64,000 nucleotides of DNA, from positions 197,675 through 261,674 of the forward strand of contig NZ_NOLJ01000002.1 in NCBI RefSeq assembly GCF_002246015.1. The letters are read 5' to 3'. How positions within the stretch are numbered: the first letter of the stretch is position 1; every line of letters begins with the position of its first letter. Source of the stretch: Nostoc sp. 'Peltigera membranacea cyanobiont' 210A. Its GTDB lineage: Bacteria; Cyanobacteriota; Cyanobacteriia; Cyanobacteriales; Nostocaceae. Both the position numbers and the translations under genes were made by a program. Below are positions 42,453 to 64,000 of this stretch, one piece after another. Below the pieces are notes generated by a model. The model saw only the letters and a list, made by a program, of their open reading frames with translations. It was not told where the DNA came from and did not search any database.

Positions 42453-44114
42453 TTACACCTTACTTAGATATTGATGGATGAACTGAATAGCGATCGCACC
42501 CTCTCCAACGCCAGAAGCAACTCGCTTCACAGATCCATTACGCACATCTCCAGCGACAAAGATGCCTGGTACACTGGATTCAAGCAGGAAGGGTTCGCGA
42601 TCGAGTTGCCATTGCTTTGAACATCGTTTATTCGGTATCAGGCTGGGCCCGGTTAAGATAAACCCTTGTTCGTCTCTGTCGACAATCCCAGCCAGCCAAT
42701 CGGTGTGTGGCTTTGCACCGATTAAAATAAACAGCAACTTTGTGGGAATAGTTTCCTTTTCCTGGGTATTAGTGTTAGCGATCGTAATTGCTTCTAGGTT
42801 AGTCTGGCCATGAGCCTCAACGATGTGCGAGTGAAACTGTACTGTGATATTGTCTGTTGCTGAAATTTGGTCTATCAAGTACTTTGACATACTTGTAGCC
42901 AGTGTACTGCCCCGTACCAGCATAGTTACATGGCGAGCGTACTTAGAGATGTACACCGCAGCCTGTCCGGCGGAATTAGCTCCGCCAACTACATAAACAT
43001 TTTCATTTTGGCAAGAGAGTGCTTCGGTCATTGCTGCACCGTAGTACACACCAGCCCCAGTTAGATTTCCAATCCCAGGCACATTAAGCTTGCGATATGA
43101 GACACCAGTTGCAATCAGCAATGCATAACAGCTTAATTCTGTGCCATCTTTCAGCTTGATGATCCGATAAGAATCTTGCAAGCGAATGTCAATTACTTCT
43201 TGAGGCGAGAGAATCTCTACCCCGAATCGTTTCGCTTGAGTAACAGCGCGGCGAGCTAATTCCGATCCGGCAATTCCTTGGGGAAAGCCTAAATAGTTCT
43301 CGATCCGGGAACTCGTCCCTGCTTGCCCCCCTGGAGCCTCTTTTTCAATCAATACTGTGCGTAGGCCTTCAGACGCTCCATAGACTGCTGCTGCTAAACC
43401 AGCTGGGCCAGCCCCCACGATCGCCAAGTCGTAAAAGGGCATTTGGGCCTGCATCTTCAACCCAATTTTTTCAGCAATTTCGGCGTTCGTTGGCTGTGTC
43501 AGATACGAACCATCAGGGCAAACTACTAATGGCAAATGTGCGGTATTACATTGAGCATAACTAACCCACTGGCGCGCTTCTTCCTCTATCTCAATGTCCA
43601 ACCACTGATAGGGCATATAGTTGCGGGCCAAGAAGTCTTTTATATGATGACTCTTAGGCGACCAACGAGAGCCAATAACGCGGATACCTTCAAAGGGTGG
43701 GCGGTATGACGAAATCCAATCGTCTAATAAATCGCTAAGAACTGGATATAAAAGGTCTTGTGGCGGCTCCCAGGGTTTAAGAAGATAGTAATCAATCTTT
43801 GCTGTATTGATCGCAGAGATCGCAGCATCGGTGTCCGCATAAGCTGTTAGTAAAACTCGTTTTGCAGACGGAAAAATTTGCATAGCCTGTTCAAGGAACT
43901 GCACACCTGACATTTGTGGCATCCGTTGGTCTACCACACAGAGTGCAACTGTCTCATTACGTAATTTTACTTGTTGCAATACTCTCAAAGCATTTGCACC
44001 TGAGTTGGCTCTTAGTACCCGAAAGCGATCGCCATACTCATGTCGGAGATCTCGCTCTATTACTCGTAGAACTCCGGGGTCATCGTCAACAGTAAGTAGT
44101 ACAGGATTAACCAA
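42453..44114 (-). CDS. Receiver domain fused to thioredoxin-reductase-like flavoprotein
   Basis: A 553-residue fusion. Residues 1-130 are a response-regulator receiver (DDD at 10-12, phospho-acceptor Asp62 in VVDQRMP, Lys in LLKPWEPP). Residues ~144-215 are a glutaredoxin-like region whose CxxC position reads SPKS. Residues ~226-553 are a thioredoxin-reductase-like FAD/NADPH protein (AIVGAGPAGLAAAVYGASEG, VYVVGGANSAGQAAV, GIFVAGDVRNG). The redox CxxC of true thioredoxin reductases is missing: the equivalent segment is VYYGAAMTEALSC. A TTG start at 44114 is supported by AAAGGAG six to seven bases upstream. Followed directly by the histidine kinase. Confidence 0.9.
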   Translation of the reverse strand: MVNPVLLTVDDDPGVLRVIERDLRHEYGDRFRVLRANSGANALRVLQQVKLRNETVALCVVDQRMPQMSGVQFLEQAMQIFPSAKRVLLTAYADTDAAISAINTAKIDYYLLKPWEPPQDLLYPVLSDLLDDWISSYRPPFEGIRVIGSRWSPKSHHIKDFLARNYMPYQWLDIEIEEEARQWVSYAQCNTAHLPLVVCPDGSYLTQPTNAEIAEKIGLKMQAQMPFYDLAIVGAGPAGLAAAVYGASEGLRTVLIEKEAPGGQAGTSSRIENYLGFPQGIAGSELARRAVTQAKRFGVEILSPQEVIDIRLQDSYRIIKLKDGTELSCYALLIATGVSYRKLNVPGIGNLTGAGVYYGAAMTEALSCQNENVYVVGGANSAGQAAVYISKYARHVTMLVRGSTLATSMSKYLIDQISATDNITVQFHSHIVEAHGQTNLEAITIANTNTQEKETIPTKLLFILIGAKPHTDWLAGIVDRDEQGFILTGPSLIPNKRCSKQWQLDREPFLLESSVPGIFVAGDVRNGSVKRVASGVGEGAIAIQFIHQYLSKV

Positions 44115-49734: not shown

Positions 49735-50052
49735 TCTTTCTCTCTGTCCTTATAGCATTTAACTGGTGGGTCATTTAGCACGCTTTTAGCCATCAAAAAA
49801 TTATTAATGGTATTTTTAGCAATTTATTAATAGCCAAAGTTGTGTTAAATTACCCTTTAATTATTGACTACAATATTGCCCTGAAGAAGGCTTACTGATT
49901 GGAAAACCTACTTATACATCTATTCAGGAATTACTGAGTCCAAACTTTGCAACTAAAGTGAAAAATTTAAATCTACTCATTTTGGTAATTTAATTGCCTA
50001 TTAATTAGTTTATATAAATTAATTTTAATGGATGATTAATATAGTTACAATG

Positions 50053-50080
50053 GTTTAACTTTGGGATGAGGTTTGTATTC
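50053..50080 (-). promoter_or_regulatory. Shared two-box element, copy 1 (glgX)
   Basis: Reading on the minus strand: GAATAC, a 16-bp spacer starting AAACCTC, then GTTAAAC with CATTG immediately after. The same geometry (box, 16 bp, box) occurs at 60756, 63162 and 63505. It ends 318 bp before the glgX start. Spacing of the hexamers is promoter-like, so it may be recognised by an alternative sigma factor; an activator site is the other option. Confidence 0.6.
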
Positions 50081-50138
50081 TTTTGATAATAAATAAGTAA
50101 TTAATAATATTTTTAACTATTTACAATATTTAAATTTT

Positions 50139-50168
50139 AGGATGCGTTCGCTCAGGCTAACGCATCCA
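50139..50168 (-). terminator. Hairpin downstream of the glucosidase gene
   Basis: GGATGCGTT pairs with AACGCATCC around a short CGCTCAGGCT loop, a 9-bp perfect stem. On the minus strand it comes about 57 bp after the stop of the glucosidase gene and is followed by TAAAATTTAAAT. It probably separates the long operon from glgX. Confidence 0.6.
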
Positions 50169-50224
50169 GGCTTTATATACAATGTAGAAGGAAAACGAGA
50201 AGTTAGAATCAAGATACTATCAAA

Positions 50225-52885
50225 TTAATCTGATAAGACCTGTTCTGCACATTGCTGAATTAATTTGGCGATTAAACCTGTCCAACCAGTTTGATGGCTA
50301 GCACCAATACCAGCGCCATTATCTCCATGAAAGTATTCATTAAACAGAATCAGGTCGCGCCAATTCGGGTCTGTTTGGAATTTTTCTGTTCCACCATAAA
50401 AAGGTCGTCTACCAGAAGCATCTGTCAGAAAAATTTGGATCAGCCTTTGAGCTAATTCAATTGATACTTCTTTGAGCGTCATCATTTGACCTGAACCGGT
50501 AGGACACTCAACTTTGAAATCGTCGCCGAAGTACCGATAAAATTTTTGTAGCGATTCTAGCAGTAGATAATTAATGGGAAACCAAATTGGCCCGCGCCAG
50601 TTGGAATTACCGCCAAACATTCCTGTGGTAGATTCAGCAGGTTCGTAATCTACTCGATACTCCCGACCATCTACGGTCAAAGTGTAAGGATGGGACGCAT
50701 GAACTTTAGAAACAGAGCGAATACCATAAGGGCCAAAAAATTCTGTTGCATCTAACATTTTTTCTAAGATGCGACGGAGTTTATCGGGATAAGCGATCGC
50801 TAGCAGTCGGCGCTCACCAATTCCTTGTTTCTGCATACAAGCAATATTTCGGGTCAGATCTGGGCGATTTTTCAGAAACCATTGCGTCCGCTCTCTAAAA
50901 CCTGGGAGCTTCTCTAAAGTCTCTGGTTCTAAAATGCTCACGGCACATAATGGAATTAGCCCTACTAGCGATCGCACTTTCATCGGGAATTGATGACTAT
51001 CAGGTAAATGTAGAGCATCGTAGTAAAAGCCATCAGTTTCATCCCATAGCGCGATTTCAGCTTCACCAACGCCGTTCATGGCATCAGCAATGTATAAAAA
51101 ATGCTCAAAAAACTTGCTGGCGATGTCTTCGTAGGTAGAATTTTCTTTGGCTAACTCTAGGGCGATGGTCAACATATTTAGAGAATACATTGCCATCCAA
51201 CTTGTACCATCTGCTTGTTGCAGATATCCACCAGTTGGTAGTTGAACGCTGCGATCGAAAACACCAATATTATCCATACCTAAAAAGCCACCCTGAAAGA
51301 TATTTTTGCCCTCAAAATCTTTCCGGTTAACCCACCAAGTAAAGTTCAGCAGTAATTTCTGGAAGACACTCTCCAGAAATTTTTTATCCGCACGACCATA
51401 TATTTTTTGCTCAATCTGATAAACTTGCCATGCTGCCCAAGCATGAACCGGCGGATTCACATCACCAAAAGCCCATTCATAAGCTGGTAGTTGGCCGTTA
51501 GGATGCATATACCACTCTCGCGTCAAGCGACTCAGTTGCAGCTTGGCAAAGTCTGGGTCAATCATGGCGAGCGGAATTACATGAAAAGCTAAATCCCAAG
51601 CCGCAAACCAAGGGTATTCCCATTTATCGGGCATGGAGATTACATCGTCGTTAAATAAATGAAACCATTCATGGTTTCTGCCATTGAGCCGTGATGCTGG
51701 CGGGCGGGGGCCAGCCGGATCGCCTTTTAGCCATTGGTCGGCTACATAGTAGTAAAATTGTTTGCTCCACAACATGCCAGCAAATGCTTGCCGTTGGACA
51801 TTACGCCTGTCCTCTAACATCGGCAACGGACATATTCGTTGATAAAATTCATCCGCCTCGTGCTGGCGCTGTTGCCAAATTGTATCAAATTCAGTCCCGA
51901 ATGGTGCAGTTAAATTTTGCACGTCACTTAACCGCAATCGTACTGTCTTGGTTTCACCTGCACCGACGTGTAATTCGTAATGAGCCGCAAACTTAGTACC
52001 AATTCGATTCGGATTGACAGCCGTTTTTTGCCCATTCACTACATAATTATTTATGCCATCTTTAACGTATGGCGAAGCATTGCTAACCCCAAACAATCTT
52101 TGATTATTAGTCTCATTTTCTGTAAAAAGTAGTTCTGGAGTTTCATTACAATACAGCCATCGAGTTGCTAAAGAAGGGTGATAAGCTTCGATGGTGCTGA
52201 GGTCAGAGTTAGATTGGCTAATTTTTAACCACGGCTTTTCTTCTTGATTAGAAGTCCAAGACCAGGTGTTGCGGAACCAAAGCGTTGGTAACAAATGTAG
52301 CGTTTTTGCTTCTGGGCCTCGGTTAATCACACTAATTTCAATTAAAATGTCGTCGGGTGAAGCCTTAGCATACTCAACGAATACATCAAAATAGCGGTCT
52401 TGATCAAATATACCTGTGTCGATTAATTCAAACTCTGGTCTTTGGCGATCTCTGCGGTGATTTTCTTCTACCAGCTGACTGTATGGAAAAGCAGCTTGGG
52501 GATATTTATAAAGATATTTCATGTAGGAATGAGTCGGGGTGTTATCTAGGTAGAAGTAGTATTCTTTAACATCTTCTCCGTGATTCCCCTCATTCCCGGT
52601 GAGGCCGAAAAGCCTCTCTTTGAGAATTGCATCTTCACCATTCCAGAGAGCGATCGCAAAACATAGTCGCTGATGATTATCAGAAATTCCCCCAATTCCA
52701 TCTTCTCCCCAGCGATAGGCGCGGGAGCGGGCATGGTCGTGGGGAAAGAAATCCCAGGCGGTACCATCAGGGCTATAGTCTTCCCGCACCGTTCCCCACT
52801 GGCGTTCGCTCAGGTAGGAACCCCATCGTTTCCAGTAGGCTGTGCGATCGCGGTCTGCTGCTAATCTTGCTTCTTCTTGGGTCAT
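50225..52885 (-). CDS. Large glucosidase-like protein (GH63/MGH1-like fold)
   Basis: An 886-residue protein of the bacterial glucosidase group with a C-terminal (alpha/alpha)6 barrel related to GH63 mannosyl-oligosaccharide glucosidase and mannosylglycerate hydrolase. Seen are the N-terminal [28 protein letters not shown] and [34 protein letters not shown]. The barrel has [40 protein letters not shown], whose acidic residues are the likely catalytic ones, and [22 protein letters not shown]. No signal peptide, so cytoplasmic. The natural substrate may be a compatible-solute glycoside or oligosaccharide; not decidable here. Last gene of the long minus-strand run from 60566. Confidence 0.82.
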
Positions 52886-53019
52886 AGCAATTTAGGATTT
52901 TGGATTAAAAATCTTTAGCACAAGGTTGTTTTAAGTGGCTCAAACAATACTATTTATGCTGATTTTGGATGAATGCAAAACTTAAAATTCAGAATTCTCT
53001 GTGGTAGGTTCTAGTTTAC

Positions 53020-53793
53020 CTATTGCTCATGATAGTTCCGGCTCAATCCACCATCTACATAGAAGGTTGCGCCTGTGATGTAGTCAGCATCGGCTGAGGC
53101 TAAGAAAGCAACTATAGGTGCGATATCCTGTGGTTTGCCTAAGCGACCCAAGGGAATATTTTTTAATAAGGCTGCTAATTTTTCAGGGTCATTTAACAGC
53201 TTACTATTGATTGGTGTCTCAATTGCTCCAGGAGCCACGTTGTTAATTGTAATTCCCAAAGGCCCAAGCTCAACTGCTAGGTTACGCATCATCATCTTTA
53301 CACCGCCCTTGCTGGCACAGTAAGCAGTGAAGTGGGGAAATGCTATTTCCTCATGGGTAGAGCTAATATTGATGATTTTGCCGGTTCGCTTGGTTTCGAT
53401 GAAGTGCTGCACTATCGCTTGAGTGGCGAAAAATGTCCCTTTGAGGTTGAGATTAATCACTGCATCATAGTCGGCTTCGGTAATATTCCAGAAGTCAGCA
53501 TTTCGACCGTCGATACCAGCATTATTCACCAGAATGTCTAACTTGCCAAAGTATTGAATACCCTGGTTTAGAAGTTGACGGATGTCGCTAATTACACTCA
53601 AGTCAGCTTTAACAGTTAAGCCTTTGCTACCAGCAGCTTCTACTTTCGACAGAGTTTCTTGAGCGCCTTCAGGATGAGAGCGATAATCAATCACAACATC
53701 TGCACCTTGTTCAGCCAGATGTACGGCAATAGCTTGGCCAATTCCTCCACTACTACCAGTTACTAAAGCTACCTTACCTTCTAGTTTCTTCAT
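53020..53793 (-). CDS. Short-chain dehydrogenase/reductase
   Basis: A 257-residue classical SDR oxidoreductase. The cofactor motif TGSSGGIGQAIA (~12-23), the NNAGIDG strand, catalytic Ser in INISSTHEE, and YCASKGG (Tyr/Lys pair) are all intact. The C-terminal ITGATFYVDGGLSRNYH is typical of glucose 1-dehydrogenase/FabG-like members. An Arg after the second strand (DYRSH) suggests NADP preference. The start is supported by AAAAGGAGAAAG before the ATG. It sits 134 bp upstream of the glucosidase gene and downstream of the aquaporin-like gene, in the stress operon. Confidence 0.9.
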   Translation of the reverse strand: MKKLEGKVALVTGSSGGIGQAIAVHLAEQGADVVIDYRSHPEGAQETLSKVEAAGSKGLTVKADLSVISDIRQLLNQGIQYFGKLDILVNNAGIDGRNADFWNITEADYDAVINLNLKGTFFATQAIVQHFIETKRTGKIINISSTHEEIAFPHFTAYCASKGGVKMMMRNLAVELGPLGITINNVAPGAIETPINSKLLNDPEKLAALLKNIPLGRLGKPQDIAPIVAFLASADADYITGATFYVDGGLSRNYHEQ

Positions 53794-53879
53794 TAGCTTT
53801 CTCCTTTTAGAGTATTTTGATGTTTTCAGGTCTTATAAAACAGGATTCAGCAGTCAGAATTCTGGATTCTTCTTTAAAT

Positions 53880-54689
53880 CTACTGATGTTTTTGCAGATG
53901 TGGCACCTTAACATTCTTAAAAATACAACGATAATTGGGAACATGAAAAAGTTTACCAGTCAAAACTTCGCGTTCACCCATAGATATCAGTTGAAAAACT
54001 CCCACAGCAGTTAATGCCCCTAGTGGAGATGCAATACAATAAAGCCATTGATTTTGCCAAGACCATGCTAAGAAAGCAGGCCCAATACTGCGTGCTGTAT
54101 TCAAACTAGTGCCAGAAATGGGCGCTCCCAACCAAACCATAGTTGCCACTAGAAGCCACACCATTAAAGGTGTCCAACGTAATAGCTGATGATGACTCAA
54201 GAAAATAAAGATAGACAACACTAACATAAATGTCATCAAAACTTCAGCTAGAAATACATACCACAAAGGATACCCTATTCCAGGTGAAGTAATACAATAA
54301 TTGACGCTAATCAGGTAATTTCCCCACAAATTTAATGCTAAAAATGTGCCAAGAATTGCGCCCAAAAATTGACCAAAAATATATCCAATTAAGTCCTGTT
54401 TATGCATTTTGCCTTGCATCCAGAATGCCAATGATAAACAGGGGTTTAGGTGCGAACCACTCAGTTTACCTAAAGGGGAAATGCTAAATAATGCACCACT
54501 TCCAGCAAAAATAACACCATTAATTAATAAACGAGGACTCACTGCCGGGATAAGATGCTCCATAGGCAAACCTTTGCCAAAATTGAAGGTGATTATGCTA
54601 AATCCAACCAAGAGATTGAAAGCAGTTCCTAACAACTCTGCACCATATTCAGACCAATTTAGAGTTTTCCAATTTGCAAAAGTATTCAT
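53880..54689 (-). CDS. Aquaporin-like (MIP family) membrane protein with altered NPA motifs
   Basis: A 269-residue protein with six membrane segments and the two-fold MIP layout. The first half-helix signature reads SGSHLNPCLSLAFWMQGK (NPC in place of NPA) and the second SGTSLNTARSIGPAFLAW (NTA in place of NPA), with the Arg of the selectivity filter kept in TARS. NPA-variant aquaporins may have altered selectivity. A TTG at 54713 is in frame, but the ATG at 54689 is preferred. It lies among stress-related genes, where water or small-solute flux would make sense. Confidence 0.83.
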   Translation of the reverse strand: MNTFANWKTLNWSEYGAELLGTAFNLLVGFSIITFNFGKGLPMEHLIPAVSPRLLINGVIFAGSGALFSISPLGKLSGSHLNPCLSLAFWMQGKMHKQDLIGYIFGQFLGAILGTFLALNLWGNYLISVNYCITSPGIGYPLWYVFLAEVLMTFMLVLSIFIFLSHHQLLRWTPLMVWLLVATMVWLGAPISGTSLNTARSIGPAFLAWSWQNQWLYCIASPLGALTAVGVFQLISMGEREVLTGKLFHVPNYRCIFKNVKVPHLQKHQ

Positions 54690-54836
54690 GAGTTTTTTTC
54701 TGGCAATCAACAATTAAGCTTTATACAGCAATTCCGTTAAGGTTTTGAACAAAGATTAGCTACTTGATAAAATTTTTATTCTCAACTAGTTCATCTCCTA
54801 TGGAGGAATGCTGTATATAGTTAAGTTGAAATTATC

Positions 54837-55274
54837 TCAATTGAGTTGCAATGGTGGTGGATTATCCTGATCGACATATCCTTGGCTAATTTCAACAATA
54901 TTACCATCTGGATCGGATACCCAAACCGTGCGCCACCCAGGAATAAAGCCATCAAAGTTGAGTGGGCCAAGAGTCACTTTTGCATCTTTGCCGATTTCAG
55001 CGAGTTTAGCATCAACATCATCAACCTGGAAACCAAAATGACGCCAAGCCGGATAGGTAGGCCCATCTTGGCTGGCTAAAGGAACAGGGGTTTCTCCCTT
55101 GGCTTGGAAGAGTTCAAGGTACATATCACCCAATTTCAGAAAGACAATTTGCTCATTATTGCCAATTGGTGCAACCCTTGCTCGTTTAAAGCCGAAATAT
55201 TTCGTGTAGAATTTTTCAGTTGCAATCGGATCTTTGCAGCTGATTGCCATTTGTGAAACTTTTAACAAAACCAT
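54837..55274 (-). CDS. VOC superfamily (glyoxalase/dioxygenase-like) protein
   Basis: A 145-residue protein with the two beta-alpha-beta-beta-beta modules of the vicinal oxygen chelate fold: LKVSQMAISCKDPIATEKFYTKYFGFKRARV and PAWRHFGFQVDDVDAKLAEI...TVWVSDPDGNIVEISQGY. Putative metal ligands are Glu in YLELFQ, His in WRHFGF and Glu in IVEISQ. Substrate unknown. The frame extends to a GTG at 55295, but the ATG at 55274 is preceded by AAGGACTGAAG at good spacing. The next gene upstream stops 37 bp away, same operon. Confidence 0.87.
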   Translation of the reverse strand: MVLLKVSQMAISCKDPIATEKFYTKYFGFKRARVAPIGNNEQIVFLKLGDMYLELFQAKGETPVPLASQDGPTYPAWRHFGFQVDDVDAKLAEIGKDAKVTLGPLNFDGFIPGWRTVWVSDPDGNIVEISQGYVDQDNPPPLQLN

Positions 55275-55311
55275 TACTTCAGTCCTTACTGACACAAAAA
55301 AGTGAACTTAG

Positions 55312-56133
55312 TTATGCGTATGACCCATCGGGGTACTGAATTACACCAGCAAAGTGAACAGCGATTTTGCGATCGCGCAGCACCCAGTTATCATAGAAAC
55401 TCACCTCGCCAACGTCACCATTGACGCTTCTGGTCTTCAAGTTTTCGACTATCATCAGCGTGTTATCAGTTTCAGCCCACTGGTGAAGCTTGACCTCAAA
55501 ATCTTCTAGACTGAAAATGCGACTTTCAAAGAACTCTTTGAGTGCTTGACGACCACGCACGTAAATTGGTTTGCGGTTTTCAGTTAAAGTGCTAATAAGC
55601 AGGACATCTTCTGCATATTGGTTGAGTAAACCATCAACATTCTTGGCTTTAATAAAGCCGATATGCTCTTTATAGAGTTTCCCCAATGGAGATGCGGGTA
55701 CTTCTGTTTTAACTGTTTCTGCATTTACATAAGTTTTATCTGGATACTGAATTACGCCAGCAAAGTGGATAGCGATTTTTCCATTTTGCAAAAACCAGTT
55801 ATCGTAGAACTCCACACTACCGACTTCACCAGTCTTACTTGTGGTGGTTAACTCCTCCACCATCATCAGCGTGTTTTCAGTTTCAGCCCACTGATTAAGC
55901 CTGATTTCAAAATCTTCTAAACCAAAAATACGACCTTCAAAAAATTCTTTGAGTGCTTGACGGCCTTGTACGTAAATTGGTTGGCGGTCTTCGGTTAATG
56001 TGCTAATAAGCAGAGCATCATCAGCATATTGGTTGAGTAAACCATCAAGATTTTTAGCTTTGATGAAACCGATATGTTCTTTATAGAGCTTGCTGATGGG
56101 AGAAACAATCAATTGTTCTATTGGTGTACTCAT
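55312..56133 (-). CDS. Tandem double SnoaL/NTF2-like protein
   Basis: A 273-residue protein made of two NTF2-like (SnoaL/ketosteroid-isomerase-like) domains, ~10-135 and ~148-273. The halves are nearly identical: LYKEHIGFIKAKN(L/V)DGLLNQYA, GRQALKEFFE, and HFAGVIQYPD at the ends. The high identity, also at DNA level, marks a recent internal duplication. NTF2 folds bind small hydrophobic ligands and many are non-enzymatic. It precedes a VOC gene and follows two further NTF2-like genes, all probably co-transcribed. Confidence 0.87.
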   Translation of the reverse strand: MSTPIEQLIVSPISKLYKEHIGFIKAKNLDGLLNQYADDALLISTLTEDRQPIYVQGRQALKEFFEGRIFGLEDFEIRLNQWAETENTLMMVEELTTTSKTGEVGSVEFYDNWFLQNGKIAIHFAGVIQYPDKTYVNAETVKTEVPASPLGKLYKEHIGFIKAKNVDGLLNQYAEDVLLISTLTENRKPIYVRGRQALKEFFESRIFSLEDFEVKLHQWAETDNTLMIVENLKTRSVNGDVGEVSFYDNWVLRDRKIAVHFAGVIQYPDGSYA

Positions 56134-56293
56134 GGTAGTCCTATATGTAGGGGATTAAGACTGAAGGGAAGGAAGTTATAAAGAGGATAGAAATGAAGGT
56201 GAGCAGAACTAATATTAAATTGTTTATAGTTAGGGCTAGTTTATAACTACAAACAAGCCGCCATAAGCATCGCCTAAAATTAGTTCTATTCTA

Positions 56294-56665
56294 TTAAACC
56301 CAAAAACCAAAGTGATAAGCAATTTGTCCATTACGGATAGTCCAGGCATCGCCAACTGATACTTGACCAAGTTTGCAGTTGAATTTTGCTTGGAAAAAAA
56401 TAGCATTTTCTGCTTCTGTGAAATCTAGGGATTTGATATCTATATATTCAATTGCTTTTAGGTAGTCGTGAAAGAATGTTTTGATATTTTCACGCCCATT
56501 AATTGTGATTGGTGCAGGTGTGTTCTCAAAACCATTAAAGAAGGTGATTAACACAGCATCTTCTGCATAATCCCTATCCACCATTTCATCGATTTTTCCA
56601 GCAGAAATAGTTTCTATATGTTTGTCAAAGAATTGTCGTCCGGGTGAAATTGTTGAAACTGTCAT
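56294..56665 (-). CDS. SnoaL/NTF2-like single-domain protein
   Basis: A 123-residue NTF2-like protein: PGRQFFDKHIETISAGKIDEMVDRDYAEDAVLITFFNGFENTPAPITINGRENIKTFFHDYL, with the closing GQVSVGDAWTIRNGQIAYHFGFW. The pattern (residue layout, tryptophan near the end) matches the SnoaL fold and resembles the domains of the neighbouring double protein. The function is unknown. Separated by 160 bp from the double-domain gene and about 120 bp from the next NTF2-like gene. Confidence 0.82.
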   Translation of the reverse strand: MTVSTISPGRQFFDKHIETISAGKIDEMVDRDYAEDAVLITFFNGFENTPAPITINGRENIKTFFHDYLKAIEYIDIKSLDFTEAENAIFFQAKFNCKLGQVSVGDAWTIRNGQIAYHFGFWV

Positions 56666-56787
56666 TTTTCTATCTCCTGCAATTGTGATGGAACTTGTGA
56701 GTATGGAGCGCTAATCACTACAGATAATTATTTTTACGGTGGTTATATGCGCTCCAAAACTTCATTTTCTTATGGATGTCTGCAATC

Positions 56788-57237
56788 TTAGAGTTGAGCA
56801 GACCCTTCATAGTAACTAAGTGAATCAACAATGTAGGTTGCAATCACTGGCTTACCAGTGTAAGGCGATCGCTTGACTATCCAAGTTTGATAAGCATCTA
56901 AAACAATCCGTTGACTTGTGGCTGCTGGTGGATTCCACACGCTAGCTTCCCATTTGACGATGACTTGAACACTCGCCTCGTCTCCTGAAGGCTTAACGTT
57001 GACTTGCTTTAATGTATGGACTTCATCAAAGAAAATTCCGATAACGCGCTCGTACCAACCTTTAAATCCTTCAAAACCATAAACTGTAGCTTCAGGAAAG
57101 CGCATTTCTAGACCTTCTTCAGCTAGAAAAGGAATATATTCTTCTAGCGGAGCGTGAACATCTAATTTTAAATACCAATCTGTTGCCAGTTGCTTAATTT
57201 CCGAAGCTGTTAAAGGCGCTACGTTAGTTACTGTCAT
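56788..57237 (-). CDS. NTF2-like family protein
   Basis: A 149-residue protein with LTASEIKQLATDWYLKLDVHAPLEEYIPFLAEEGLEMRFPEATVYGFEGFKGWYERVIGIFFDEVHTLKQVNVKP, then a beta-sheet with VIVKWEASVWNPPAATSQRIVLDAYQTWIVKRS. This is an NTF2-fold protein more distant from its two neighbours. It follows the ThDP enzyme gene by 38 bp, so it is co-transcribed. It has no obvious catalytic Asp/His set that I can assign; a binding or small-molecule isomerase role is possible. Confidence 0.8.
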   Translation of the reverse strand: MTVTNVAPLTASEIKQLATDWYLKLDVHAPLEEYIPFLAEEGLEMRFPEATVYGFEGFKGWYERVIGIFFDEVHTLKQVNVKPSGDEASVQVIVKWEASVWNPPAATSQRIVLDAYQTWIVKRSPYTGKPVIATYIVDSLSYYEGSAQL

Positions 57238-57275
57238 GATTTTTCTCCTTGTTGATAAGTAAAAATTTCAGTTGG

Positions 57276-59024
57276 CTATTGACCACACTTAACGCCAATC
57301 TTTGTACCGACAATTTCGTTTGTTAGTACCAAATCAATTAAAAATGGGCCATTGTGTTCCAATGCTTTTTGGATAGCTGGAGCAATCTGCTCTGGCTTTT
57401 CTACCCGAACAGCTTGAACCCCTAAAGATTTTGCTAATTCAGCGAAATCGATATTCGGGTTGCACAAGTTAAAAGAAGCTGGGTAGTCGTGTTCTGGTAT
57501 TTCTTGTTCGCCCCAATAGTGCAGAATATTGAGCTTCAGGATTTGATAGCTGTGATTATTACAGATGACAAATTTGGCATCTATATTGTGGTGGGCAGCA
57601 GTCCAGAGGGCTTGGATAGTATACATACTGCCGCCATCACCCGTGAACGCAACTACAGTTTTATCTGGATTAGCCAGCTTAATACCGATCGCTCCGGGAA
57701 TACCAACACCTAGCGAACCGCCTCGTGTTTGGTAATATTGTCCTAGTTTTGTCGGTGGTATATACCGACAAAGTTCGGGAGAATTGGTAATGGCTTCATC
57801 GAAAATAATGGCATCTGCTGGGAGATGGGCAGCTAATTCTTCTGCAAAACGAGTCATGTGCAGAGGTACTGAATCCCGAACCGCTTTATCAGCTTCCAAT
57901 CGAGCCGCCGATTCCCGCTTCTTGTTTTCAGCTATCCGGCTAGCCCTAAGAGAAGCCTCTTGCTTCTGTTCAGGTGTCAAAGTTGACTCAAGAGCGATCG
58001 CTAATTTGCTCAGACTAGTTTTCGGATCGCCAAGCAGCCCCAGATCCACCGGAAAGTTCTTCGCTATTTCGTAGGTATTCAAGTCAATGTGAATTATTTT
58101 TGCTGACGGAGCAAAAACTCCAGACAGCGCCGGAAATACCTCTGGAAAAACGTAGGTTCCAGTAATCAAGATTACGTCTGCTTGTGATGTAACGCGACGG
58201 CTATCATCCCCAAACATGTGACCTAACAACCCTCCGAATAGAGGATGTGTGGCGCTCATATTCGCTTCCGATGAATCTGCTCCCCAAACTTGTGCGCCGA
58301 TGAGTTCGGCTACATCTGTCAACTCAGCCTGGGCATCGGAAAAAGCTACACCATCGCCCATAATAATTAGAGGATGTTTAGCAGCGGCCAATAAAGTTGC
58401 TGCTGTTGCCAGTTGGTCGGGTTCGGGGGCAACCCGTGTCACGGGAAAAGAAGTTGGGACAACCTCTTCATAATTAGGAGCATCAAGGATATCCATCGGT
58501 AGGGAGACGAACACCGGGCCCATAGGAGGCGTAGCAGCTATTTTGATGGCTCGGCGTAGCACACGTAACAAAGAAGAAGGATCGACTACCCTAGTTGACC
58601 ATTTTGTTACAGGCTTGGCCATACTGACTAAATCTGCTGCCATTTGGGCATCCATCGCATCGTAGCAGATGCCAGCTTCGCCAGCCAGTACTACTAACGG
58701 TGCATGACCACGCATAGCCTGATAAATCATCCCGATGCCATTGCCTAAACCGACTCCGCTATGGAGTTGCACAATAGTAGGCTTTTTGGTGGCGCGGGCA
58801 TAGCCATCACCTGCACCGACTGCGATTGTTTCTTGCAATGCAAAGATATATTTAAATTCTGGATAATAGTCTTTTAAGGCATCTAGGAACCCCTGCTCAA
58901 CAGTGCCAGGGTTGCCAAACATGTAATTTATACCATCTGCCAGAAGTTGTTCGATGATTGCAAAGCGACCATTTTTGTTAGCCATCAAAGGCTTATCGTT
59001 GCTCTGTTTAGTCAAACTTACCAT
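57276..59024 (-). CDS. Thiamine-diphosphate-dependent enzyme (acetolactate synthase/benzoylformate decarboxylase-like)
   Basis: A 582-residue three-domain ThDP enzyme. The Pyr domain has the catalytic Glu near 64 in LQETIAVGAGDGYARATKKPT. The central domain (~210-340) follows. The PP domain carries the metal/ThDP motif GDGGSMYTIQALWTAAHHNIDAKFVICNNHSY (~455-487). It lacks recognisable FAD-binding signatures of true acetolactate synthases, and no regulatory subunit is nearby, so a 2-oxoacid decarboxylase or carboligase role is likelier. It overlaps the upstream DJ-1 gene by 7 bp (ATGGTAA), so it is translationally coupled. Confidence 0.87.
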   Translation of the reverse strand: MVSLTKQSNDKPLMANKNGRFAIIEQLLADGINYMFGNPGTVEQGFLDALKDYYPEFKYIFALQETIAVGAGDGYARATKKPTIVQLHSGVGLGNGIGMIYQAMRGHAPLVVLAGEAGICYDAMDAQMAADLVSMAKPVTKWSTRVVDPSSLLRVLRRAIKIAATPPMGPVFVSLPMDILDAPNYEEVVPTSFPVTRVAPEPDQLATAATLLAAAKHPLIIMGDGVAFSDAQAELTDVAELIGAQVWGADSSEANMSATHPLFGGLLGHMFGDDSRRVTSQADVILITGTYVFPEVFPALSGVFAPSAKIIHIDLNTYEIAKNFPVDLGLLGDPKTSLSKLAIALESTLTPEQKQEASLRASRIAENKKRESAARLEADKAVRDSVPLHMTRFAEELAAHLPADAIIFDEAITNSPELCRYIPPTKLGQYYQTRGGSLGVGIPGAIGIKLANPDKTVVAFTGDGGSMYTIQALWTAAHHNIDAKFVICNNHSYQILKLNILHYWGEQEIPEHDYPASFNLCNPNIDFAELAKSLGVQAVRVEKPEQIAPAIQKALEHNGPFLIDLVLTNEIVGTKIGVKCGQ

Positions 59025-59845
59025 CCGTACCGCCTCAGTCCTTTATCCAGAACTTCCACTACCTTTTGACCAGTTGTATAAGAATCTGCGGTAGACCGAC
59101 CTGTGATAAATGGATAATCGACAATCACGGAGATTTCTTTCCCAAAATTACCGTGATATGCCCCATCTGGTCCGGTGGCATCTTGGAGAATATACTCTAG
59201 AGGATAGGGAGGTGGTCCCATATTAATGTCTGCGCCGACAAATCCGGTGCCATCCTTGTAATCATATTCTTTGCAATGGCCTGTGACGTGCTTACCCCAA
59301 ATAATGCTCTTGCGGTCTGCTAAGTCACGAGCAAAGGCGAAACAAGTTACACCGTAGCATTCTGCTGCGATCGCCTTACCCTTTCTGTAAAAGCTGAGAA
59401 TCAGGTCGTGAACGCGATGGTTATTTACTAAATCAACAATAGGGCCGCTACCACCGACTATCAGTAGCGCATCGTATTGTTCCAAATCTTTCTGTACTTC
59501 ATCGAGTGCATTGTTGTAGGCTTCCATTTCCCGGAGGAATTTTTCAGCACTCCAGTAAGGGCGATCGGGCAACCATTGTGACAGGATGATTGGATTGTCC
59601 AGTCGGGGGTTCTTAGGATCTTCCAAGTGCTTGACTTTTTCCGCCATCTCTTGGGAGACAACAGTCCGGCCTAAAGGTGGGTCAATATAAGTAGGGTCCA
59701 TGCTGGGAGGAAGCGCTACTGGTCTTTTTCCTGTTGGAGTTGCAAAGTCAACCTGATACCCCGCAGCATCGAAAGTTTCTAAAGGCCCTACCAGTTCTTC
59801 ACCCCAATAACCATATTCCGATAAAATTATGAGAATTTTTTTCAC
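59018..59845 (-). CDS. DJ-1/PfpI family protein (Hsp31-like)
   Basis: A 275-residue member of the DJ-1/PfpI superfamily. The nucleophile-elbow cysteine is in AIAAECYGVTCF (~162), the upstream glycine-rich strand is LLIVGGSGPIVDL, and the N-terminus reads KILIILSEYGYWGEELVGPLETFDAAGYQVDFATPTG. Longer DJ-1 proteins include Hsp31-type chaperone/glyoxalase III enzymes that remove methylglyoxal; that role is inferred. The start is a GTG (59845) with AGGAGA seven bases upstream. It lies 37 bp after a second DJ-1 gene and overlaps the ThDP gene. Confidence 0.87.
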   Translation of the reverse strand: MKKILIILSEYGYWGEELVGPLETFDAAGYQVDFATPTGKRPVALPPSMDPTYIDPPLGRTVVSQEMAEKVKHLEDPKNPRLDNPIILSQWLPDRPYWSAEKFLREMEAYNNALDEVQKDLEQYDALLIVGGSGPIVDLVNNHRVHDLILSFYRKGKAIAAECYGVTCFAFARDLADRKSIIWGKHVTGHCKEYDYKDGTGFVGADINMGPPPYPLEYILQDATGPDGAYHGNFGKEISVIVDYPFITGRSTADSYTTGQKVVEVLDKGLRRYGW

Positions 59846-59882
59846 AAGATTGTCTCCTAGTCATGAATTAGTTTTGAGATAA

Positions 59883-60566
59883 TTAGCTTGCAACTTTTAG
59901 TCTTGAAACAGAGGTAGTAGCCCTTCTGTTTGAGAAACGATTTGTGGCGATAGATAATTGCTGGATTTGTTCGGTAATCGCATCAATGAATGGTTCAACC
60001 TCGTGTTTTGAGCGACCAGTAACAAGGTCGCCATCCACCACAACACCTGTAGGTGATGTTGTATAAACTGCACCAGCATTGAGAATATCTGCAAGGACAA
60101 CCTCATGGCAGATAACTTGTCGGTCTTTGAGTAATTCAGGCATTGGTGTCAGTATCCAAAGACCGTGGCAGAGTGCGCCTTTAATAATTCTGGGATTTGC
60201 CATTGCCTTGGCGTAAAACTGTACAGCCGGTGAAGTACGAACTTGTTCAGCACTAATTGGCTGACCTATTGGTGGCTCAAAGTAACGCAGACGCACGCTA
60301 GTATAGTTAGCGGTCATAATCACAGCCGCGTAGTCGTTAACATCTACGTTTTGAAAATCAATGTTTACATCTATTGTTCTAGGCGTATTGCCCGTATCTT
60401 CATCACTGAAAAAACGAACACTCGGCTGATTCCAGAGCCTAGACATCAGATGTACCGTTGCTTTAAGTTCTGAGAAGCGCTTTTGATATGCTTCAATTTC
60501 TTCAGGGATGAACTCACTTTCTAGAAGAATTGCGATTTTTTTCCCACCAAGGGATCTAGGTATCAT
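59883..60566 (-). CDS. DJ-1/PfpI family protein
   Basis: A 227-residue DJ-1/PfpI protein and the first gene of the long operon. Signatures: KKIAILLESEFIPEEIEAYQKRFSELKATVHLMSRLW, VNDYAAVIMTANYTSVRLRYF and the elbow cysteine in IIKGALCHGLWIL (~132). The C-terminal VVVDGDLVTGRSKHEVEPFIDAITEQI is typical of PfpI. A positively charged tail follows. Protease, deglycase and glyoxalase activities have been claimed for relatives; none can be assigned here. A shared 28-bp element lies 189 bp upstream. Confidence 0.88.
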   Translation of the reverse strand: MIPRSLGGKKIAILLESEFIPEEIEAYQKRFSELKATVHLMSRLWNQPSVRFFSDEDTGNTPRTIDVNIDFQNVDVNDYAAVIMTANYTSVRLRYFEPPIGQPISAEQVRTSPAVQFYAKAMANPRIIKGALCHGLWILTPMPELLKDRQVICHEVVLADILNAGAVYTTSPTGVVVDGDLVTGRSKHEVEPFIDAITEQIQQLSIATNRFSNRRATTSVSRLKVAS

Positions 60567-61019
60567 ATTGGTTCAATATTCTTAGGGTCACTAGATTCTT
60601 AAATTTGGAATGTACGTGACTTATTCTTAAGCCTTTAGCAAAAAGTTTAGAGAGACTAAAACATAAATACAAGGGTGAATATTTTGCAGAAAGGTTAGTT
60701 TTTTTATTGACTGAATTTTATTTAAATTTAAAAACTATAAAATAAAATTACAATGGTTTATTTTTAGTTCTAAGGTTGTATTGTTTTGGTAATTACGGCT
60801 CGATAAATACTCAGAATCACCTTTATACTGCAAGTAATAATTCAGAACTAATAAAATTTCAATACTTAAAAATAATAAGTTTACGAAAATAAATAATCGT
60901 ATTATATTTTTATCAATTCTGAGTTTTGACTTCTGATTGCGGAATTATGTGTAATCAGAATTTTTCTCCCACTATCAATAATAATTGGCAATTTTTCACA
61001 GACTTATCTCGACTTAACT
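60567..61019. promoter_or_regulatory. Divergent regulatory region between the DJ-1 operon and the peptidase fragment
   Basis: 453 bp, very AT-rich, with no supported ORF. It contains the 28-bp element at 60756-60783 pointing toward the DJ-1 operon. The minus-strand leader between element and start codon is about 190 bp. Confidence 0.6.
60756..60783 (-). promoter_or_regulatory. Shared two-box element, copy 2 (DJ-1/ThDP operon)
   Basis: On the minus strand: CAATAC, 16 bp beginning AACCTTAG, then ATAAAC with CATTGTAAT following. Same box-16-box geometry as copies at 50053, 63162 and 63505. It ends 189 bp before the DJ-1 start codon. Confidence 0.65.
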
Positions 61020-61397
61020 ATGAATTCGATCAACCAAGAAATTTATTACAAGCTGGAGCTAATGCGAAAAGTTCTGAGCGAAACTGGTGCAATGGGCGTG
61101 CGATTGCGCGGTTCAGATTGGTTTGCTTGGGCTACTGCTGGTGGTTCTAACACTGTGTTACTCGCTAGTGAGACTGGAGTAGCGGAAGTTTTGGTAACTG
61201 TTAAAGATGCCTGGATATTGACTGATGAGATTGAAGCTCAACGCTTACAGGATGAAGAGCTTCCGGGTAAGGATGAGTCGTCAGATAGTCTCTATAAACT
61301 GCACATTAATCCTTGGGCTGATCGGGTTGCCCGCGAGTCTTTCGTCCGCGAGGCGACAAACGGGGGAAAGATTTTCAGTGATATTCCTACTGACTAA
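61020..61397 (+). pseudogene. N-terminal (creatinase-N) fragment of an M24 family peptidase
   Basis: 125 residues match the N-terminal domain of M24/creatinase-type aminopeptidases: LMRKVLSETGAMGVRLRGSDWFAWATAGGSNTVLLASETGVAEVLVTVKDAWILTDEIEAQRL, then NPWADRVARESFVREAT. The catalytic pita-bread domain that should follow is absent; the frame stops with TAA and a terminator comes straight after. I interpret a deletion that removed the C-terminal two-thirds but kept the end signal. A functional stand-alone domain cannot be excluded because the frame is undamaged. Confidence 0.72.
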
Positions 61398-61406
61398 AAT
61401 TTAGCC

Positions 61407-61448
61407 AGCCGCAAGCCTTTTGATGCGGTATCAATGGGTCTTGCGGCT
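61407..61448. terminator. Bidirectional intrinsic terminator
   Basis: AGCCGCAAG at 61407-61415 pairs exactly with CTTGCGGCT at 61440-61448. T-rich sequence follows on the plus strand (TTTGTTCTATTTT) and AAATTTTAG-type sequence on the other. It lies between the convergent M24 fragment and malQ and can serve both. Confidence 0.7.
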
Positions 61449-61461
61449 AGTTTGTTCTATT

Positions 61462-62973
61462 TTATTGGTGGTGATTCGCCCTTCCATAAGTTTCAGTCAT
61501 TGCTCTGAGGCGATCGCTAATCTCTGGCGTTAAAGCTGCGGACTGATATCGCCAACCCCAACTCCCTACATTTTTGCCAGGAAAATTCATCCTAGCTTCG
61601 GTGCCTAATCCCAAAACGTCCTGTAGAGGAATAATCGCCTGATTGGCTACAGAACTGAGTGCCAATCGAATCAAATCCCAGTGGATTCCAGACTCACTCT
61701 GACAACCCAAATAACTTAAGACTTGTGTTTTTTCTGGGGGTAACAATTGATTGAACCAGCCAACTGTCGTGTCATTATCATGAGTACCTGTATACACAAT
61801 ACAATTAGACTGATAATTGAACGGTAAAAAGCGCTTTTCAGCTTGTGAACCTTCACCAAAAGCAAACTGTAAAATTTTCATGCCGGGAAATTCAAATTTG
61901 TCTCGCAGAGCATATACCTCCGGTGAAATTTCTCCCAAATCCTCGGCGATGATTGGCAGCTTACCTAACTTTTGTTGCAGTACTTCAAAGAAAGTCTCTC
62001 CAGGGGCTTCAATCCACCTACCATCCATAGCAGTTGTTTCGCCCTGTTTTACGGCCCAGTAAGCTTGAAACCCCCGAAAATGATCGATGCGAATCAAATC
62101 TACATAATTAAGCATGGACTGGAAGCGTTGCACCCACCACTTGAAGTTCTCCTGCTGTAGCCGCACCCAGTTATAGACCGGGTTGCCCCAAAGCTGTCCA
62201 GTAGCGCTGAAGTAATCTGGCGGTGTTCCTGCCATTAGTGCTGGTTCACCTGTATGTTCATCAAGGCAAAAGTTTCCGGGATTAGCCCAAACGTCAGCGC
62301 TTTCGTGAGCCACATAAATTGCGATATCTCCTAGTATTTGAATCCCACGCTGGTTAGCATAGCGCTTCAGTTGTGTCCACTGAGAGAAAAACTCAAACTG
62401 TAGATATTTATGGTAAAAAACTTCATCTGCAAGTCGCTGCTCGTATTGCTCGATCGCTTCTGGTTTGCGTTGAGCGATCGCCATCTCCCAAGTATTCCAA
62501 CGAGCGCCCTTGTGGGCATCCTTGAGCGCCATAAACAAGGCATAATCATTTAGCCAGTAAGCTTGACTCTGACAAAACTCCTGAAATTCCTGGTGCTGAC
62601 TTGATGTTGCACTAGTTTTGAAGTTTTTGCAGGCTTTTTGTAGGATTGGTATCTTGGTTTGGATAACCTGGGAATAATCTACTCTTTCAGTGGAAAACTT
62701 TGGTAAATTTGTGAAATCTTCAGCCAGCAAGCCTTTTTTTTGCAGCAGATCTGGGCTGATTAACAGGGGATTTCCGGCGATCGCTGAATAAGAAGCATAA
62801 GGAGAATTACTATCTCCGGTAGGCCCCAATGGCAATATCTGCCAAAGCTGTTGTTTACTTTCTACTAAAAAATCAACAAAGCGATAAGCTTCCGATCCAA
62901 AGTCACCAATACCAAACTGACTAGGAAAAGAAGTAGGATGTAGCAAAATCCCGCTAGTTCTGGGAAAAGGCAT
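61462..62973 (-). CDS. malQ: 4-alpha-glucanotransferase (amylomaltase)
   Basis: A 503-residue GH77 enzyme that transfers alpha-1,4-glucan segments and recycles malto-oligosaccharides released from glycogen. Diagnostic segments: FPRTSGILLHPTSFPSQFGIGDFG at the start, WQILPLGPTGDSNSPYASYSAIAGNPLLIS, RIDHFRGFQAYW (nucleophile Asp), IAEDLGEI (acid/base Glu) and YTGTHDNDTTVGWF (transition-state Asp). Length matches bacterial MalQ. It complements GlgX and the GH63-like glucosidase encoded nearby. Its promoter region holds one of the shared 28-bp elements. Confidence 0.94.
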   Translation of the reverse strand: MPFPRTSGILLHPTSFPSQFGIGDFGSEAYRFVDFLVESKQQLWQILPLGPTGDSNSPYASYSAIAGNPLLISPDLLQKKGLLAEDFTNLPKFSTERVDYSQVIQTKIPILQKACKNFKTSATSSQHQEFQEFCQSQAYWLNDYALFMALKDAHKGARWNTWEMAIAQRKPEAIEQYEQRLADEVFYHKYLQFEFFSQWTQLKRYANQRGIQILGDIAIYVAHESADVWANPGNFCLDEHTGEPALMAGTPPDYFSATGQLWGNPVYNWVRLQQENFKWWVQRFQSMLNYVDLIRIDHFRGFQAYWAVKQGETTAMDGRWIEAPGETFFEVLQQKLGKLPIIAEDLGEISPEVYALRDKFEFPGMKILQFAFGEGSQAEKRFLPFNYQSNCIVYTGTHDNDTTVGWFNQLLPPEKTQVLSYLGCQSESGIHWDLIRLALSSVANQAIIPLQDVLGLGTEARMNFPGKNVGSWGWRYQSAALTPEISDRLRAMTETYGRANHHQ

Positions 62974-63161
62974 AATAAACCTCTATTTTAAGAAATAGGA
63001 ATCAAACAATTGATAGAAAAGATCGACAGAAGATTACGAGTCTATCTGAAACTATCTCAAGTGAAAAAACTAACGAAGTTGAAATTCGTTGTGACTATTT
63101 ATACGCATAAATTTTTGCTCTAACATCTTAAGATTAAGAGGCATGAAACATAGATGCAAAG

Positions 63162-63189
63162 GTTAATTTTTTGTAGAAAGTTTGTATTC
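63162..63189 (-). promoter_or_regulatory. Shared two-box element, copy 3 (malQ)
   Basis: On the minus strand: GAATAC, 16 bp beginning AAACTTTC, then ATTAAC with CTTTGCATC following. It ends 188 bp before the malQ start, almost the same distance as copy 2 to its gene. Confidence 0.65.
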
Positions 63190-63357
63190 TTTGGTTCTAT
63201 TTTTTGATGTTAGTTATTTTTTGAAGATAATTACTCTTATTACTTACTAAAATTTTTAAAGTTTTTCAACCGAAATTGAACGCTATATCACTATCCAAAT
63301 ACGATTGTTCAACCTCCTATAGCAATCCGATTTGATTTCTGAATCACTCGTAGAGGT

Positions 63358-63392
63358 AAGGGACTGGGGACTGGGGACTGGGGACTGGGAAG
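63358..63392. repeat. STRR heptamer array
   Basis: Four tandem units of GGGACTG (GGGACTGGGGACTGGGGACT). Typical cyanobacterial heptamer repeat, non-coding. Confidence 0.7.
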
Positions 63393-63504
63393 AAGGAATA
63401 AAGGTGTACTGAGTTTTGTTCAAAAATCAAATATGAGTCCTATAACTAATTCTTAAACTTTGAGAAGAGAGAATGATGTGTAGATAAAAACAAGCAAATC
63501 CAAA

Positions 63505-63532
63505 AAATACAACCTTTAACCAAAAATTTAAC
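63505..63532 (+). promoter_or_regulatory. Shared two-box element, copy 4 (exported protein)
   Basis: On the plus strand: AAATAC, 16 bp beginning AACCTTTA, then TTTAAC with CATTGCAGT following. It is the only plus-strand copy and precedes the only plus-strand intact gene in this part of the window, 205 bp before its start. This orientation change together with the gene is strong support for a role in transcription. Confidence 0.62.
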
Positions 63533-63737
63533 CATTGCAGTTATGTTGTATATTTGATAAATTCTTTCATGCTTAGGTTAAATTTCATCCAGGTAGGTTT
63601 TGATTTTTTAGGAAAAAGGTTTCTCCTAAAATGACTCCGTTTTCATAATTTTGATCGTAAAACAATTTCCTGATTTTTAGGTAAAAAAACCAACTATTTT
63701 GATTCGTTAGAAGCTAGCACATCTAAATCTACAAGCA

Positions 63738-64000
63738 ATGAGAAATAGTTATTTATCCTTTGCTCAAGGTGTAAGCATCCTTTGTCTGACTTTACAAAGC
63801 GCTTCTGTCCTGGCTGAAACATCACAACCTACTAACAGTTCTGAGCCAGTTGTAAACCCGACAGTTTTGAAAGTACAAACCAGCGTCATTGAACCTTTGG
63901 AACCTAGTTCAGGAATACTTACCCCGATCGCTCAGACTGCGGCTCAAGCCGTTCCTGAAGATGAAATTGCCCGGATACTTTCTTCTGAAGCCCAAGTTAC
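63738..64000 (+). CDS. Exported protein, N-terminal part (cut by window end)
   Basis: An open frame from the ATG at 63738 runs to the end of the window (87 codons). Residues 1-26 form a signal peptide (MRNSYLSFAQGVSILCLTLQ, cleavage likely after VLA in SVLAETSQ). The mature start is Ser/Thr/Pro/Val-rich, followed by EDEIARILSSEAQVT. It could be the start of a cyanobacterial outer-membrane porin or receptor, which often have such linkers, but the visible part is too short to decide. It carries its own copy of the shared upstream element. Confidence 0.65.
   Translation, partial: MRNSYLSFAQGVSILCLTLQSASVLAETSQPTNSSEPVVNPTVLKVQTSVIEPLEPSSGILTPIAQTAAQAVPEDEIARILSSEAQV

Follow-up and report, generated by a model that had tools for sequence, protein, structure and literature searches.

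A 64,000-nucleotide stretch of the genome of Nostoc sp. 'Peltigera membranacea cyanobiont' 210A (contig NZ_NOLJ01000002.1, positions 197,675 to 261,674; hereafter the window) carries an island of genes for a glycogen debranching protein (glgX), an AGE epimerase, a 4-alpha-glucanotransferase (malQ), DJ-1 proteins, a TPP enzyme, oxidoreductases and an OprB porin, together with an AraC-family regulator (coordinates in Table 1). Here, we describe a conserved element that stands upstream of genes of this island, the putative promoter that follows it, and the AraC-family protein as its candidate binder.

Copies of the element and the putative promoter behind it

A sequence-only reading of the window had reported four copies of a 28-bp two-box element, and all four are present, at 50053-50080 (-), 60756-60783 (-), 63162-63189 (-) and 63505-63532 (+), at distances from the start codons that agree with the open reading frames (ORFs): 318 bp for glgX, 189 bp for DJ-1, 188 bp for malQ and 205 bp for an exported protein. 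The four copies are real and beyond chance: the two-box pattern matches four times in the window whether or not its second box is widened, the analytic expectation is 0.003 per 64 kb, and first-order Markov simulations (second box widened) gave 0 matches in 60 runs. That the window holds no other copy was an error, as a fifth, diverged copy lies at 60668-60701 (-), 81 bp downstream of the copy at 60749 and with the same DJ-1 operon behind both (36.1 bits with the matrix described below; E 2.3e-11 with a profile built without any site of this genome). Tandem site pairs like that of DJ-1, 81 or 82 bp apart, also occur in G110, G061, G092 and plasmid pC052_B. The 28-bp extent was too short, the longer conserved block being CNAAANAATRCAAACTTNCTNCNAAANATTAACCMTTGYA. 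The gene described as the one intact plus-strand gene is cut by the window end, encodes a 565-aa SLH/OprB porin and is not the sole plus-strand ORF in the vicinity, another lying at 61020-61397.

Scanning 849 kb of this genome and its relatives with a 34-bp matrix gave 70 matches, and reversed sequences scored at most 11.8 bits with the final matrix. Two matches below 24 bits were dropped and the other 68 reduced to 54 non-redundant sites (<80% identity over 94 bp), from which the consensus above was taken. Genome-wide (8.33 Mb), a search with the corrected 34-bp pattern, allowing 3 mismatches, gave 7 matches, all on contig C12 (1.0 Mb) between 247720 and 276817, and the reversed control gave 0. 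A sequence-only profile of 68 positions (R1), built from 30 of 46 relatives' sites and from none of this genome, finds 8 matches here with E 4.7e-8 or better, all within C12:247694-276848 (29 kb), and beyond those 8 a single weak match at C12:263356 (E 5e-5) and no other better than 0.05. Three of the strong copies start past the window end, at C12:263593, 268893 and 276778. The eight strong sites lie upstream of glgX-AGE, DJ-1 (two sites), malQ, the OprB porin gene, a heavy-metal P-type ATPase gene (675 bp from the gene), a glyoxalase/dehydrogenase unit and an SDR pair. The weak ninth copy (C12:263356-263417 (-); 65682-65743 in the window frame) keeps the upstream half and has lost CCMTTG; no minus-strand gene is seen behind it in the list of ORFs of at least 80 aa, and from its sequence it looks like a decayed copy.

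None of the 70 matrix sites (0/70) falls within an ORF matched to island proteins, and the next downstream ORF matches an island protein in 51 cases, is an unmatched ORF of at least 100 aa in 18 and is absent within 900 bp in one. The genes that recur behind the sites are SDR1 (11 sources, one at 35% identity), GlgX (8), DJ-1a (8) and MalQ (4), and GlgX, MalQ, DJ-1a and SDR1 are again among the genes behind the sites of nine further stretches. The site nearest the DJ-1a start codon is 132-138 bp away in 12 of 13 sources and 226 bp away in G139. The possible regulon proposed in the sequence-only reading is therefore strongly supported, as the sites precede genes, are restricted to a single island, and are found again ahead of the same genes in other genomes and families. 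It survived a check for matches at random positions, strong R1 matches being found only in the one 29-kb region, and another for orthologous promoters that lack the element, sites recurring before orthologous genes.

The TTG that follows the second box is part of a hexamer, TTGYAN, and TANNNT stands exactly 17 bp after this hexamer in 45/54 non-redundant sites; the runner-up spacings are 8 bp (10 sites), 10 bp (8) and 23 bp (8). The 34-bp matrix stops within the hexamer, so that the -10 signal is not built into it. In this genome the 17-bp spacing is found in 6/8 strong sites, and in the nine further stretches (G285, G371, G159, G155, G395, G461, G298, G375 and G037; 26 sites scoring 17 bits or more, against at most 10.5 in reversed sequence) in 24/26, a count that is not fully blind because these stretches were picked by R1 or AraC matches. 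Because TANNNT lies 17 bp downstream in most sites, TTGYAN and TAAACT are likely the -35 and -10 boxes of a separate promoter, with the originally noted boxes upstream of it, at about -64 and -43 when numbered from the start that this pair implies. Judged from the aligned sites, the noted boxes are part of a ~38-bp site that runs from about -70 to -33, and conservation as a whole spans about -70 to -7. Of the 54 sites, 37 have CNAAA at column -5, 47 have it at column 16 and 32 have both, 21 bp apart; the module is rare elsewhere in the element. An inverted symmetry (TRCAA..TTGYA) was rejected, inverted-repeat scores being negative throughout. At C12:276778 (the SDR1 promoter), L043 and L045 the gap between the putative operator and TAAACT is 6 bp longer, suggestive of a spacing shift within one lineage.

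The AraC-family protein and its co-occurrence with the element

Copy 1 of the AraC gene sits inside the left operon, between the AGE and oxidoreductase genes, and copy 2, 89% identical, lies outside the window at L009:8499-9173 (C12 ~283.5-284.2 kb), so the two genes flank the element sites on either side. The protein has a DNA-binding domain of the AraC/XylS family (PF12833, E 1.7e-22). In an AlphaFold2 (AF2) model, residues 43-150 have a predicted local distance difference test (pLDDT) score above 50, mostly above 80, and Foldseek matches 3lsg, 6swi, AdpA, AraC and SoxS, as well as RamA-type DNA-binding domains; according to this model, the domain folds like the AraC/SoxS/RamA DNA-binding domains. 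The N-terminal 42 and C-terminal 80 residues have no Pfam match and pLDDT below 50, and no effector domain was recognised. With a best score of 64.6 bits against an NCBIfam cut-off of 208, the protein does not qualify as an equivalog of E. coli AraC, MelR or RhaS.

Among 145 genomes of the family, 10 carry AraC orthologues at E 4.7e-57 or better, separated by a natural gap from the rest (7.8e-40 or worse; cut-off E<=1e-50). Strong motif matches (R1 E<1e-6) are found in 10/10 of these genomes vs 2/135 others (Fisher p=8e-14), a comparison that is partly circular because 7 of the 10 contributed training sites to R1. The two motif-only genomes, G085 and G106, bear the genus label of G120 and are assemblies of 1300 and 1010 contigs. 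At a looser R1 E<=0.01, 43/145 genomes have some match, mostly single and weak; the 20 weak, near-equal matches of G077 (E 0.003-0.006) are probably an unrelated dispersed repeat. Across 388 genomes of the order (AraC E<=1e-42, motif E<=1e-5), AraC is found in 14, the motif in 11 and both in 10, so that the motif occurs in 10/14 genomes with AraC vs 1/374 without. G155 has the motif alone and G298, G309, G347 and G375 have AraC alone, the match in G309 and G347 being confined to the DNA-binding domain. With this genome and the training genomes G110 and G139 removed, the counts are 7/11 vs 1/374 (p=1e-11). The motif-positive genomes of the order bear five family labels (f1, f12, f16, f18 and f20), and those with both motif and AraC bear four of these (not f12). 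Eight of ten named AraC loci show the motif in their retrieved flanks when 4 mismatches are allowed.

Recognition helix 1 (SPAYLTDLVRRETG) is common to many paralogues. Recognition helix 2 reads D[RK]RHF[GS]R in 20/43 loci compared and has other sequences in 23/43, for example with GHF[FI]R. Strong motif matches (E<1e-6 in the family set, E<=1e-5 in the order set) occur in 17/19 genomes with the D[RK]RHF[GS]R signature (exceptions G298 and G375) and in 1/22 genomes represented only by other helix-2 types (G106); in these sequences, recognition helix 2 tracks the motif. AraC paralogues with 52-53% identity lie near weak profile matches at G142:C124:44517 (E 7e-4; about 5 kb away), G134:C35:44014 (1e-3; about 4 kb) and G061:C4:31845 (4e-3; about 0.3 kb), and these may mark related regulator-operator pairs. 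A 282-aa protein, hyp282 (L009:12363-13211 and homologues), carries the signature EExGHDxLALLDIQ and is encoded near the AraC gene in 7/8 further stretches that show that gene (not G037); it has no Pfam family above cut-off, and its model is poor (mean pLDDT 44.6) and helical.

Proposed activation and competing explanations

We favour, with a probability of roughly 0.8, the reading that the element is the operator of the AraC-family activator encoded on both sides of the site-bearing stretch. Two AraC monomers would lie side by side on the ~38-bp site, each half opening with CNAAA and the half-sites standing 21 bp, or two helical turns, apart. The downstream half (-49 to -33) would overlap the -35 box TTGYAN, which with TAAACT 17 bp on would form a housekeeping-type, non-optimal promoter; the bound activator would then recruit RNA polymerase (class II activation) and jointly switch on the glgX-AGE, DJ-1/TPP, malQ, porin, P-type ATPase, glyoxalase/dehydrogenase and SDR units. 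The sequences show the sites themselves, where they stand relative to -35/-10, that they keep to the island and are conserved ahead of orthologous genes, and that they co-occur with the AraC gene; binding by the AraC protein, the dimer geometry and activation rather than repression are what we infer. By sequence, the putative operator abuts or overlaps the -35 box of a predicted sigma70-type promoter, 45/54 and 24/26 of the sites having a -10-like hexamer at 17 bp. Because the regulator shows no effector domain, we conjecture that its activity may be set by its own amount or by a partner such as hyp282.

At class II sites of the AraC/XylS family (XylS/Pm, araI1-I2, RhaS, MelR), direct-repeat half-sites stand about two helical turns apart and end at or in a sigma70-type -35 box. 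The element's layout resembles that of these activators, by analogy, and differs from them in its half-site sequence, in a regulator without a recognised effector domain and in the use of one operator type for seven transcription units of one island. The MtlR site at PmtlE covers at least 37 bp upstream of a TTGTCA -35 box, where an A-tract adjoins two blocks of similar sequence, one at -72..-58 and one at -50..-36, and a majority of the AraC/XylS family carries an effector-binding companion domain (PMC4514859); the element seems to share the MtlR layout of a site directly upstream of -35 with two blocks.

Several points weigh against an AraC-bound operator. The full half-site direct repeat is weak, its lag-21 score being matched by 410/5000 permutations and exceeded over full half-sites by lags 20, 19 and 18, and only the CNAAA part clearly repeats. 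Two of the eight strong sites of this genome have a spacing other than 17 bp, namely 16 bp at C12:268893 and 23 bp at C12:276778, and R1 finds no strong site before either AraC gene of this genome. G298 and G375 carry AraC with the same recognition helix and yet no strong motif, the motif is lacking in the fetched flanks of L042 (a 10-kb contig) and L048 (57% identity), and G085, G106 and G155 carry the motif without an orthologue at the cut-offs used, the first two in very fragmented assemblies. Kinship among genomes makes all co-occurrence p-values optimistic. Because several island proteins are without a Pfam family, an unrecognised DNA binder is possible.

The last point bears on an improbable alternative, in which another island regulator binds, such as hyp282 or a response regulator driven by the cyclic-nucleotide (cNMP)-binding histidine kinase, and AraC is merely co-inherited. 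The target genes, the kinase and hyp282 likewise co-occur with the motif, and hyp282, encoded so often close to AraC, is one of those proteins without a Pfam family. However, the recognised DNA-binding domains among the Pfam-scanned island proteins are those of the two AraC proteins and a transposase, the kinase's neighbour joins its receiver to an oxidoreductase rather than to a DNA-binding domain, and recognition helix 2 tracks the motif. We hold it to be about as doubtful that the AraC protein binds as a repressor, or as activator or repressor by state. E. coli AraC is such an activator or repressor by state, and sites that overlap the -35 box are in a position compatible with occlusion; the fixed phasing to a weak -35/-10 pair at most sites and the match to the class II layout suit activation better.

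The sequence-only reading had left open an alternative sigma factor, with the two boxes as its -35 and -10, or an activator. The 16-bp box spacing is indeed promoter-like, and AATAC resembles part of the SigJ J-box of Nostoc punctiforme, GGGaAtacT, which lies at the -10 itself (PMC6495340). The likeness to this Nostocaceae promoter element ends at AATAC: our consensus has no GGG, stands upstream of -35 and is followed by a separate -10, and identity with the J-box was rejected. With the boxes at about -64/-43 and not at -35/-10, a second pair TTGYAN-N17-TANNNT following in 45/54 and 24/26 sites, conservation from about -70 to -7 exceeding what sigma boxes alone need, and strong sites limited to one island with an AraC gene instead of being genome-wide, the sigma option is very unlikely. 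The activator option is supported, as the two boxes precede a separate -35/-10 pair at most sites. The results lend no specific support to the link with osmotic, desiccation or heat stress that the sequence-only reading implied. A chance AT-rich similarity or a dispersed repeat could draw on the AT-rich flanks, and has a negligible probability given the 0.003 copies expected per 64 kb, the 0 of the reversed-pattern control, conservation confined to functional columns and sites in several families.

The island, its relatives and the meaning of the proposed regulon

Table 1. Features of the window, ordered by position (window coordinates); sites and promoter boxes are predictions
Feature	Position	Strand	Basis or detail
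Proposed binder: AraC-family regulator, copy 1, 230 aa	44411..45103	-	PF12833, AF2/Foldseek, co-occurrence
AGE epimerase with C-terminal STAS domain, second gene after glgX	45405..47603	-	
glgX, glycogen debranching protein	47569..49734	-	TIGR02100, 721 bits vs cut-off 640.9
glgX promoter -10 box TAAAAT, 17 bp from -35	50022..50027	-	
glgX promoter -35 box TTGTAA	50045..50050	-	Position rule from aligned sites
Activator site (-70 to -33), glgX operon	50048..50085	-	Matrix; profile E 1.3e-10
GH63-type glucosidase	50225..52885	-	"glucosidase" in annotation of plasmid relatives
SDR (glucose-1-dehydrogenase-like), MIP aquaporin, glyoxalase (VOC), two SnoaL proteins, 149-aa protein without Pfam family	53020..57237	-	
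DJ-1a, DJ-1b and TPP-enzyme genes	57276..60566	-	
Proximal-site promoter elements	60644..60672	-	-35 TTGTAT 60667-60672, -10 TAAACT 60644-60649
Proximal activator site (fifth copy), DJ-1/TPP operon	60670..60707	-	Matrix; profile E 2.3e-11
Distal-site promoter elements	60725..60753	-	-35 TTGTAA 60748-60753, -10 TAAATT 60725-60730
Distal activator site, DJ-1/TPP operon	60751..60788	-	Matrix; profile E 2.5e-11
malQ, 4-alpha-glucanotransferase	61462..62973	-	PF02446, E 1.3e-185
malQ promoter	63131..63159	-	-35 TTGCAT 63154-63159, -10 TAATCT 63131-63136
malQ activator site	63157..63194	-	Matrix; profile E 1.2e-14
OprB porin gene activator site	63500..63537	+	Matrix; profile E 3.0e-12
OprB promoter	63535..63563	+	-35 TTGCAG 63535-63540, -10 TAAATT 63558-63563
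SLH/OprB porin gene start, 565 aa, runs past window	63738..64000	+	

From family names only, the genes suggest a role of the island in alpha-glucan breakdown, glucose oxidation and aldehyde handling. Regulatory domains are joined to enzymes in part of it: a receiver domain is fused to a pyridine-nucleotide-disulphide oxidoreductase at 42453-44114, and the cNMP-binding histidine kinase (40990-42450) lies beside this fusion and the AGE-STAS fusion. The malQ-oprB intergenic region contains a short GGGGACT tandem repeat (window 63361-63390), and a 214-aa protein encoded at L008:12220-12864 has a C-terminus that resembles a PEP-CTERM sorting signal.

The AraC protein has some match in 96 plasmid records, and in two of these the match extends over at least 80% of its length: pNe_3 of N. 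edaphicum (predicted conjugative) and pC052_B of Nostoc sp. C052. Plasmid pC052_B keeps the window order (malQ-DJ1-DJ1-TPP-...-glgX-AGE-oxidoreductase-kinase-LtrA), departing from it by an IS110 transposase after malQ and by having no AraC gene behind AGE; on pNe_3, much of the gene set is present, differently ordered. The gene divergent from malQ varies: this genome and L047 have OprB, G110 has a GMC oxidoreductase, and pC052_B has an NHLP RiPP precursor. Beside the right-hand AraC copy lie genes for a TrbI-like conjugation protein (L009:3981-5549) and a DDE transposase (L009:6168-7280), which fits a mobile origin. The AraC regulon is probably mobile. We tentatively suggest, at somewhat less than even odds, that it is a self-contained transferable regulon. 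In this reading, an AraC-like activator that lacks a recognised effector domain would move on plasmids or islands, bringing a fixed promoter cassette of its own, and in different strains different cargo genes (porin, GMC oxidoreductase, RiPP precursor) would have been inserted behind the same operator.

In Anabaena, NrrA is a response regulator of glycogen breakdown. Control by the element would be like NrrA-type control in that its targets include glycogen catabolism genes, and unlike it in that the proposed regulator is of the AraC family. No description of the motif or regulon was found in the titles and shown abstracts of the open-licence papers that literature searches brought up, and mention in their full texts is possible; on the sequence evidence, this appears to be a new regulon of the AraC type, a known kind, whose operator is well defined. 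To our knowledge, few cyanobacterial AraC-family regulons have defined sites, and an unexplained motif here becomes a testable regulator-operator pair in cyanobacteria. If the AraC reading is true, an inducer of one promoter should induce the others, and removal of the regulator should silence all together. The small operator-promoter cassette could also find use as an expression tool in Nostoc. The regulon also offers a handle on the function of a patchily distributed, partly plasmid-borne island, and, if it is indeed transferable as a unit, one transfer would give a strain a whole coordinated programme of alpha-glucan and carbonyl handling.

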